Assembly (NCBI RefSeq): GCF_000526375.1
Contig: NZ_JAFY01000002.1
Coordinates: 992,001 to 1,056,000 of the forward strand
DNA from: Aminiphilus circumscriptus DSM 16581
Lineage (GTDB): Bacteria > Synergistota > Synergistia > Synergistales > Aminiphilaceae
Direction of reading: 5' to 3'
Length of the DNA stretch: 64,000 nucleotides
The position numbers and the translations under genes were made by a program. Positions within the stretch are counted from its first letter, which is position 1, and each line of letters starts with the position of its first letter. Below are positions 58,281 to 62,770 of the stretch, in pieces. The notes beneath the pieces were generated by a model, which did not search any database, had not been told where the DNA came from, and saw only the letters and a list, made by a program, of their open reading frames with translations.

Positions 58281-58514
58281 GTGCCTCCTCCGTCCGTTCC
58301 GTGGGTTTACGCGCTCTTCGTCACCGCCTCGGACGGCATGCGTCTCGCGGCTGAACTGAAGCGGCGCGGCACGACGTGCACCCTCTGCCCCACGCCGCGC
58401 CATCTCTCCAGAAGCTGCGGCCTCGCCCTCCGCTTTGCTCCGGAGGACGAGGCCGCGGTGCGCGCCGCCGCATCCTCCGTCGCCGTCGAGGCCCGGTACG
58501 TGCGGGAAAAATAA
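58281..58514 (+). CDS. DUF3343 small protein (putative Se/S carrier)
   Basis: 77 residues from GTG 58281, 19 bases after the dehydratase-like gene, without an obvious ribosome site. The core matches DUF3343: ALFVTASDGMRLAAELKRRG, then CTLCPTPRHLSRSCGLALRF with the invariant Cys-Pro-Thr-Pro-Arg and Ser-Cys-Gly-Leu. This family is found beside selenium and sulfur-transfer genes and HgdB-like proteins, and the two Cys are thought to carry S or Se. Context here suggests a link with the upstream dehydratase-type protein (inference). Confidence 0.75.
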   Translation: MPPPSVPWVYALFVTASDGMRLAAELKRRGTTCTLCPTPRHLSRSCGLALRFAPEDEAAVRAAASSVAVEARYVREK

Positions 58515-59487: not shown

Positions 59488-59518
59488 CGCCACGGCGGTG
59501 CGGAGCACCGCCGTGGCG
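59488..59518. terminator. Hairpin between convergent units
   Basis: CGCCACGGCGGTG and its exact complement around a CGGAG loop, between the MocR remnant and the nuclease gene. No T run. Confidence 0.55.
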
Positions 59519-59541: not shown

Positions 59542-60579
59542 CTATTTGGTTCGATACTCGCGGAGACGCGTGTGCGTCACGAGTCGGTCGAGTGTCTTGA
59601 GCGTGAAAACCTTGCCTCGTGTCGCGAGGAGCATCTTTTTCATGTCTTCCCTTCTGACACCGAAGCCTCGGCCGCCAATGCACGCGATGACCTCGAATTT
59701 CGGGTCGTTCGGATCTCGACCCAAGATGCTCAGCTCGCCGAGATGTTGTATGCGAGTGACCTTGTCGCGGGCCGTGCCGTCGTCCTCGGTGATCTTCGCT
59801 TCGATGACGACCTTGGGAGCAAATTCGTCCGGGATGACGAAATCTGGAGTTTGGTCGAATCCGGGGAGCCTCTCGGCTCTCTTGGTTTTTCGGAAGCTGA
59901 TGCCCTTGGCGGTGAGAACTCCTTCGATGGCGGATTCAAGGCCGTCTCCGACCAGCTCGCTCACGGAATCACGATGTCCCGCGAAGGGTCTTCCCAAAAA
60001 ACGTTCATAGAGCAACATGGCATAGGGTGCGCCAAGATCGGCGAGAGTGCCGACGCTTTCCGCGCCGTGTTTTGTGTCGGCTTTGTCAAGGCGATGAAGG
60101 TGCTCCCCGTCAACGTCGGGTGCCCCCGTTTCGATCAAGCGACACGCTGTCTCCACAAGCGCTTCAATTCGTGCCGACGTTCCTTCGGAGAGGTTGAGCG
60201 GTTCGGTGGGGCGCATTCTGATTTTTCGGTCGAGAGTGCGAATGAATCCCTGGGGTGTCGAAACGCCCGTTCTTTGCGAGGTCACGTATCCCCATTCTGG
60301 GGGCGTGAAGCCGAGCATGGTACGCAAGACGAGAAAAGCGAGTGGAATCCGAAGGACCGCAGAGAGAACCTTCTCTGTCGAAAAGTTCCGAAAACCGGAT
60401 GTGGCGCTTTTCAATGCCTCGTATCCTTCGCTGAAGACAGGATAGGTGATGAATCCCGTCCCTTTGGGCATGACGAGAAACTCTGATTCGAGGCATGAAA
60501 AAACGGCGTCCACGTAGCTTTCAGGGTTCTGCAGCAGCTCCTCCGGGGTTGCTTCAAAAGGAAATGTCGGTGTCGTCAT
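59542..60579 (-). CDS. PD-(D/E)xK nuclease-like protein, partner of methyltransferase
   Basis: ATG 60579 with AAGGAGC upstream; 345 residues; the start overlaps the methyltransferase end by 26 bases. The C-terminal half has the signature of restriction-endonuclease-like cores: DGLESAIEGVLTAKGISF (helix with Glu216), FDQTPDFVIP (Asp246), VVIEAKIT (Glu260-x-Lys262), then RDKVTRIQHLGEL. The N-terminal half (~1-205) is helical and not recognised; it may read DNA. Codon and base composition differ from the GC-rich neighbours, as does the partner gene. A restriction or repair role beside a methyltransferase is inferred. Confidence 0.7.
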   Translation of the reverse strand: MTTPTFPFEATPEELLQNPESYVDAVFSCLESEFLVMPKGTGFITYPVFSEGYEALKSATSGFRNFSTEKVLSAVLRIPLAFLVLRTMLGFTPPEWGYVTSQRTGVSTPQGFIRTLDRKIRMRPTEPLNLSEGTSARIEALVETACRLIETGAPDVDGEHLHRLDKADTKHGAESVGTLADLGAPYAMLLYERFLGRPFAGHRDSVSELVGDGLESAIEGVLTAKGISFRKTKRAERLPGFDQTPDFVIPDEFAPKVVIEAKITEDDGTARDKVTRIQHLGELSILGRDPNDPKFEVIACIGGRGFGVRREDMKKMLLATRGKVFTLKTLDRLVTHTRLREYRTK

Positions 60580-62770
60580 GGTCGGCTCCTTGTTCATCCG
60601 GTCGCTTCCGGAAAAAGTTTCGTGGTTCGTGGAGACGGGAGAGATTTGCGGTATTGAGGTGAGCCTCCGTGGCCGGAGGGATGCCGAATTGCCGTGTCCA
60701 GGCATCGATGATGCTGAGTTTTTCTTCCGTGTCGATGTGACTGTCCCAGCTTTTTCGAAGGTACCACACCGCGAGCCGGATGAGATGGCCGTAGATGAGA
60801 CATCGCACATCACCCAGCGTCGGCGTGACGCCGCCTTGACGAAGGTGTTCGATGTCCCTTCGGATCAGAGGAAAAAGTTCTTCCGAAGAGTCGGGAAGAC
60901 TGTATCTCGAAACGGTGCCAGTGGTCCGGCAGACGAAGACCGTGTCGATGATCGACGATCCTGTTCCGTTGATGTGGATGGAAGCACCCATCTCCGCGGG
61001 GCAGGGGAGGGAGGCCGAGCAGGTCAGGCCCGCGTCGAGAAGAGCCGCTGCGATGGGGAAATAGGCTTCCAGCGAGTTGTGGTGATAGGTGAAGGCCAGC
61101 GGTGCGCCTGGTTTGAGTGCATAAGCCATACGTCGGAAGACGGCGGAGAGTCCTTCCGCGAAATGGGGTAAGCCTCTTCCTTGCTCCTGGTTTCCTGTCA
61201 ATTCCCTGTCGTGTCGAGTCGATACGGGAGCAAAAAAAGCGCGTTCGGTTCCGACGAGGCGACGGAGCCAGACATAGCAGAAATCAATCAGTTCCGCGTA
61301 TTGGACGTTCCCGAAATAGGGGGGATCGGTGAACACACCATCGAGAGAGGACTCGGGAATATCGAGTTCCGCTGCGTCCATACAGTGGAGAGAGACCTGT
61401 CGTCCCTCCGTGAAAGGTGCGTTTCCACCGGCCATTTCAATCTTTTCCCCGGTGATGGAAACCGTTTCTTTGTTGCGTCCCCGGTGGCGGATTTCGAAGG
61501 GGGTGAAACAATAGGTCTTTGCCTTGCGGTATTTCTCAATGATGTTTCTCCATCCCCCGCTGCCGATGCAGGATTCCTTCGCTTGGGCGGAAATCCCCAG
61601 GATGTTTGATTCGCACTGAACCAGTCCCACCGGAAAACCGTGTACCGAGAAGATGTCAAGGGACTTCAACGCCGACGTGTCGTACCGACAGAGCATGTTC
61701 TGATAGCGCAGGAGATCCGAAAGATTTGTGGCCAGTGCGTTTCGAAGGGGCGGGTCGGTGACCGCCGCGATGTATCTGGCCGAGAGTTCGAGGCCGAGCA
61801 ACTGGCGGGCATTGAACATTTCCCGGTAGTGTCGATACCCCCAGCGGTGAAGACGGTTCGTTTCGTCCCCGGGTGGAATGGTGTCGTCCGGGACAAAGCG
61901 GGGGGATATCTTTCGCCACCGATCTTCACACTCTTCGAGACGGGAAAGATCTTGCTGGTCCGGGCTCTTGAAGAACCGGCCGGCATGTCCTGGCTTGCAG
62001 GCAGGACAGTGGTATTCGAGAGCGAAGAGACGATGAGAGGGGGGATTCGTCGCGTCCTGGGAAAACGAATTCCTGTCTCCGCAATGGGCACATTCGAAAG
62101 TGTTGCGGTGAGTCGTTCCCTTTGTGGAAAGCCTTTCGCCGCAATGAATGCAGTGTCCCGGTTCGTTGCGGTCGGCTGTCTCCGTCAGTTTTCCGCAGAC
62201 GGAGCAGACGAAGACGTTTTTGGGATGCCGAGCGTTTCCGGCGAGGAGATAGCCGGGAAACAAGTCGGTCACCTTGCCACAGGTGCGGCAGGAGGCGGTT
62301 TTTACCCAGAGAAAATACTTTACATGCGCCTCCTCGTTGCCGCAGAGAGTGCATCGGGTGCGGTAGAGATGGCCGACTTCATCCTCAAGATGCAGAAGGA
62401 GGTCGCGTGCGGCATCCGCATAGGCCGCGAGGTCGAGAAACGCCATTTCCTGCTCCACGATCCAACAGGACATGGGGTTGATGTCGCAGCCTGTGGTGTT
62501 ACATCCGATTCTGTTCGCTTCCAAAAGGGGTGTGCCGCCGCCCATGAAAGGGTCGGCGATGTTCAGTTCGTGAAACTTGTGCGGGGCGTAGAACGTCTCT
62601 CTCAAAGGGTTGCCGGCGAACTCCGCCAGCATAAGGCCCCGAAACAGTGTTCCCGGTCGCCGGGCAAACCATTTGTGAACTGCAATGATCGGTCTGTAGT
62701 TCTGTTGAATCTGTTTTTCCCGTAGTGCAAGGTCTGCGATAAAGGGGATGTCGAAATGCTTTTCAATCAT
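60554..62770 (-). CDS. DUF1156-type DNA methyltransferase with multiple zinc knuckles
   Basis: ATG 62770 behind CAGGAGG; 738 residues. The N-terminus matches DUF1156: REKQIQQNYRPIIAVHKWFARRPGTLFRG (21-49). SAM motif I is IADPFMGGGTPLLEANRIG (71-89). Six CxxC pairs follow (140-143, 161-164, 189-192, 207-210, 227-230, 255-258), i.e. about three zinc ribbons inserted between motif I and the catalytic DPPY (482-485, in VFTDPPYFGNVQYAELIDF). Motif I before DPPY is the order of the alpha/gamma N6-adenine (or N4-cytosine) classes. Base modified is unknown. It is less GC-rich than its surroundings, suggesting transfer. Confidence 0.82.
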   Translation of the reverse strand: MIEKHFDIPFIADLALREKQIQQNYRPIIAVHKWFARRPGTLFRGLMLAEFAGNPLRETFYAPHKFHELNIADPFMGGGTPLLEANRIGCNTTGCDINPMSCWIVEQEMAFLDLAAYADAARDLLLHLEDEVGHLYRTRCTLCGNEEAHVKYFLWVKTASCRTCGKVTDLFPGYLLAGNARHPKNVFVCSVCGKLTETADRNEPGHCIHCGERLSTKGTTHRNTFECAHCGDRNSFSQDATNPPSHRLFALEYHCPACKPGHAGRFFKSPDQQDLSRLEECEDRWRKISPRFVPDDTIPPGDETNRLHRWGYRHYREMFNARQLLGLELSARYIAAVTDPPLRNALATNLSDLLRYQNMLCRYDTSALKSLDIFSVHGFPVGLVQCESNILGISAQAKESCIGSGGWRNIIEKYRKAKTYCFTPFEIRHRGRNKETVSITGEKIEMAGGNAPFTEGRQVSLHCMDAAELDIPESSLDGVFTDPPYFGNVQYAELIDFCYVWLRRLVGTERAFFAPVSTRHDRELTGNQEQGRGLPHFAEGLSAVFRRMAYALKPGAPLAFTYHHNSLEAYFPIAAALLDAGLTCSASLPCPAEMGASIHINGTGSSIIDTVFVCRTTGTVSRYSLPDSSEELFPLIRRDIEHLRQGGVTPTLGDVRCLIYGHLIRLAVWYLRKSWDSHIDTEEKLSIIDAWTRQFGIPPATEAHLNTANLSRLHEPRNFFRKRPDEQGADHDDTDISF

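Follow-up and report, generated by a model that had tools for sequence, protein, structure and literature searches.

A conserved gene pair of a zinc-rich DNA methyltransferase and a predicted PD-(D/E)xK nuclease is probably a compact Type II restriction-modification system

Introduction

Type IIP restriction-modification (R-M) systems with PD-(D/E)xK nucleases, among them BstEII, BsoBI and EcoT38I, have a separate methyltransferase (MTase) and endonuclease encoded in a two-gene locus. MTases with an N-terminal DUF1156-like region (COG1743) occur in the Hma, DUF1156/DUF499 and BREX-related systems; these enzymes carry zinc fingers in an insert (PMC12839542, PMC7641849), and the BREX-related DUF1156 methylases have one, sometimes two, in this position (PMC12839542). 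Also relevant is the TPD, or CDAN1-interacting nuclease, family (PF14811), with its TPD(F) active-site motif.

Here we analyze a pair of genes, M and R, in a 64,000-nucleotide stretch of the Aminiphilus circumscriptus DSM 16581 genome (the window). The locus resembles the Type IIP systems in its two genes, its separate MTase and nuclease and the predicted fold of R, but sequence comparison detects no similarity between R and any solved structure, and R carries a helical N-terminal part of ~200 residues. M is distantly related to the MTases of the Hma, DUF1156/DUF499 and BREX-related systems, but M and R come without an ATPase or helicase, and the partner of M is a simple nuclease. R shares the TPD(F) motif with PF14811, but its match falls below the Pfam gathering cut-off and its genes are linked to an MTase gene. 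We conclude that M and R very probably (at a rough probability of 0.88) make up a complete, stand-alone Type II R-M system that forms one mobile two-gene unit; the pair is real, widespread and mechanistically ordinary as R-M, and is not a pared-down DUF1156 defence cluster.

Results and discussion

The features of the locus are collected in Table 1. A preliminary description of the window had reported a 26-base overlap of two genes less GC-rich than their surroundings, and both points are correct: the overlap has exactly that length, and the GC content of M and R is 56–57%, compared with 62–70% in the stretch to the left. A TRAP permease gene stops 114 bp ahead of the M start, a gap in which no promoter-like site was found, and the hairpin that follows R is taken as the putative end of the operon.

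Table 1. Coordinates of M, R and associated features in the window
Feature	Position	Strand	Remarks
M, DNA methyltransferase, 738 aa	60554..62770	minus	ATG 62770, stop ends 60554
SAM motif I, DPFMGGG, M residues 73-79	62534..62554	minus	
Zinc-rich insert of M, C140 to C258	61997..62353	minus	six CxxC pairs, three predicted Zn sites
Catalytic DPPY (predicted), M residues 482-485	61316..61327	minus	invariant in 77 homologues
M/R overlap, 26 bp	60554..60579	minus	R 'FPFE' codons encode M stop
R ribosome-binding sequence AAGGAG	inside M, ends 6 nt before R ATG	minus	
R, restriction endonuclease (predicted), 345 aa	59542..60579	minus	ATG 60579, stop ends 59542
PD...ExK active-site segment (predicted), R residues 245-262	59794..59847	minus	
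D-x-GTARDK family signature, R residues 266-273	59761..59784	minus	D266, G268-K273 invariant in 78/78
Terminator-like hairpin, 14-bp stem, T-rich tail	59488..59518	minus	23 bp past R stop

M has the alpha-like order of motif I, zinc-rich insert and DPPY, and both motifs, the SAM and catalytic motifs expected of a Type II MTase, are invariant in 77 homologues. All six of the CxxC pairs placed earlier between D73-PFMGGG and D482-PPY could be located (C140/143, 161/164, 189/192, 207/210, 227/230 and 255/258). Cysteines C140, C161, C164, C189, C192, C227 and C230 are invariant in the same homologues, C207/C210 are present in 76 of the 77, and C143, C255 and C258 are missing jointly in 11, a pattern which argues that the first and last pairs share one zinc. 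This pairing predicts three zinc sites in the window M and two in those 11 homologues; two are predicted, for example, for the L085 homologue. As the BREX-related enzymes have one or two, the three predicted sites of M are an elaboration, at the upper end, of a trend known in this methylase class.

Fold searches with M returned generic SAM-dependent methyltransferases only, none with E < 0.001, and sequence searches for solved relatives gave only SAM-fold fragments and chance matches to zinc proteins. The earlier label of a DUF1156-type methylase holds for its methyltransferase part; the DUF1156 part is weak, since M scores 17.5 bits with the Pfam DUF1156 model, under the 24-bit gathering cut-off. 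The HmaB and PglXI models likewise match M weakly.

GTDB genomes were scanned, yielding 363 encoded R relatives, of which the best 80 were retained. M lies directly upstream of R on the same strand in every informative locus among these 80 (79/79); the remaining locus (L095) begins at a contig edge and has no sequence upstream of R. The register of the two genes is identical to that of the window in 73 of the 79, the exceptions being L059, L069, L070, L083, L087 and the frameshifted L082. This register is locked because TTTCCTTTTGAA reads as FPFE in R and as SF-stop in M, while the position of the R start codon varies, mostly between 17 and 32 nt ahead of the M stop. Distances among M and among R proteins are closely correlated (Mantel r 0.83, a value reached in none of 999 permutations). 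The named hosts belong to at least 18 bacterial phyla. In the 187 other genomes of the host phylum that were searched, R was not found and relatives of M were only distant. The R tree tracks host phylum only loosely, and the pair is also found on viral contigs (L002, L003, L005 and L006), which indicates that it has moved by horizontal transfer.

Clustering of the neighbouring ORFs identified no third conserved gene, no other gene occurring in more than four surveyed loci, and no small controller ORF recurred among them. Hence no ATP-dependent translocase subunit accompanies the pair, as is expected for Type II. The preliminary description had remarked that only two proteins are present, where related methylases are known from larger clusters. 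It might be supposed that M and R descend from a multi-gene DUF1156 system of the Hma or BREX-related kind, as a remnant or minimal version left after loss of the ATPase and helicase: M does match the HmaB, PglXI and DUF1156 models weakly, and the genome has a complete Hma system 18 kb from the pair. However, the two-gene unit is kept in 18 named phyla with neither an ATPase nor a helicase as neighbour, so no ATPase was lost in the window, and the HmaB model gives M 77 bits as against 1523 for the true HmaB of the same genome. On the neighbourhood survey we reject the lost-ATPase hypothesis and regard descent of this kind as most improbable; nor does the locus have the HmaA helicase and HmaC ATPase that accompany an HmaB-type MTase.

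R is predicted to consist of a helical N-terminal part (residues ~1–200) and a PD-(D/E)xK domain (~201–320). The nuclease-like set Asp246 and Glu260-x-Lys262 described earlier in R is present as P245-D246 and E260-A-K262. Every one of 78 homologues keeps D246, E260 and K262 (one plasmid protein, L004, was excluded from the alignment); the occurrence of the motif is thus not due to chance. An AlphaFold model of R (77 sequences, pLDDT 88, pTM 0.63) places D...ExK on an alpha/beta core, as in the PD-(D/E)xK superfamily, with the predicted order helix 201–224, strand 247–249, strand 257–263, helix 267–285 and strand 296–302. R would thus be a separate endonuclease with conserved catalytic residues. 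In a Foldseek search with this model the top PDB match was BstEII with DNA, a marginal one (E 1.6e-3, probability 1.00, low TM-scores of 0.37/0.42), with BsoBI ranked seventh and EcoT38I ninth. The modelled fold therefore appears compatible with a Type II nuclease, although the BstEII match is not strong.

The recurrent Pfam matches of R, all below threshold, are all to nuclease families: TPD in 74 of 77 sequences, EcoRII-C in 38 and PDDEXK_11 in 26. A search of a viral structure library gave just weak TPD/CDIN1-like and PD-(D/E)xK matches, no useful match by sequence to a solved structure was found, and PADLOC gave no restriction-enzyme match. The R family is without a name in Pfam, PADLOC and NCBIfam.

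Further comparisons showed that such methylases and nucleases exchange partners. On a Microbacterium plasmid (L004) and a 130-kb viral contig (L007), distant R homologues lie downstream of another MTase, a small PF01555 enzyme, and these homologues keep the overall layout of R. Conversely, on another viral contig (L172, 5902–8889), a zinc-rich relative of M (28% identity), of a related MTase class with a zinc-binding insert, stands beside a Type II restriction enzyme; here the partner belongs not to the R family but to the ScaI family (PF09569, 2.7e-72) and is encoded convergently, on the opposite strand. Partner swapping of this kind, with recognised restriction enzymes included, matches what an R-M system predicts.

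The swaps also bear on whether R owes its specificity to the zinc-rich region of M, the two proteins working as a single complex. The constant overlap register and the tight M-R covariation would suit such a complex, but linkage alone would also yield the covariation, and R homologues of the same layout pair with an unrelated small MTase, from which R probably has its own specificity. We therefore consider a joint complex unlikely, and the same holds for its fuller form, one enzyme that is an ATP-independent analogue of the multi-subunit systems, with the three-zinc region specifying R and the overlap setting the subunit ratio. Less likely still is a Pgl-like arrangement, suggested by the distant similarity of M to PglXI, in which M would mark invading and not self DNA and R would be an abortive nuclease or a modification-dependent (Type IV-like) one. 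Among the neighbouring genes there is no recurrent kinase, PglZ or other partner, and the gene order and methylase-partner swaps fit R-M.

Two further loci deserve mention. On L025 (1945–8813) an XhoI R-M system is followed by the M/R pair and then by a second copy of a small methylase and a truncated M, a tandem duplication in which the pair was partly duplicated. A viral contig (L011, 5956–8160) encodes a relative of M (49%) without R, near a tyrosine recombinase, a case that speaks against the R-M reading; this relative may be a self-protection methylase.

The reading of the pair as a methyltransferase and a PD-(D/E)xK nuclease is supported by the invariant catalytic residues, the stable linkage and the predicted fold. 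Gene order, linkage, catalytic-residue conservation, a Type II-compatible predicted fold and the lack of other partners were all established by computation. From these we infer a Type II system in which, on a shared transcript, M would be made first and R translated via the fixed overlap. M would act at a specific sequence, methylating an exocyclic amino group that is probably adenine N6, and its target recognition region would be the large zinc-rich insert. R, with its own helical N-terminal part, would cut the same sequence when unmethylated, and this cleavage would destroy incoming phage or plasmid DNA. When 916 kb of host sequence were surveyed for avoided palindromes, many proved depleted, none in a way attributable to M/R; GGTNACC, at 0.98 of expectation, was not among them.

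The partner of an unnamed restriction-enzyme family is thereby secured, its boundaries are set and its likely active site is located. Zinc-rich DUF1156-like methylases, known mainly from large defence clusters that use ATP, would also serve compact two-gene R-M systems, and such systems appear to move between phyla and on viral contigs. The hundreds of homologues (363 in one genome scan) can be drawn on in practice for enzymes and for comparing specificities.

The surroundings of the pair were compared with a congeneric genome (G017). The MocR gene next to R had been described as broken, and it is; the G017 copy is intact (473 aa). The break corresponds to a ~1.9 kb deletion relative to G017, at 58508/58574, in which the beginning of MocR was lost together with an EamA-like transporter gene in divergent orientation. 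It lies at the far end of MocR, ~0.95 kb from the R-M genes, and insertion of these was therefore not its cause. G017 and the window are 95–98% identical through MocR, the match stopping ~6 bp past its stop codon, ~170 bp before the G017 contig ends, and homology resumes ~8 kb on. The idea of an inserted module is thus only partly borne out: G017 has no R-M after MocR, but the difference, at ~8 kb, also includes the TRAP operon.

Elsewhere, the same genome encodes the complete Hma-type system mentioned above (G000:C2:1073127-1083008; L129, L130), with scores of 956 bits for HmaA, 1523 for HmaB and 1150 for HmaC, and a second three-gene cluster (L131, G000:C5:278000-292000) of a PLD-helicase, a DUF1156 methylase and an HmaC/DUF499 ATPase.
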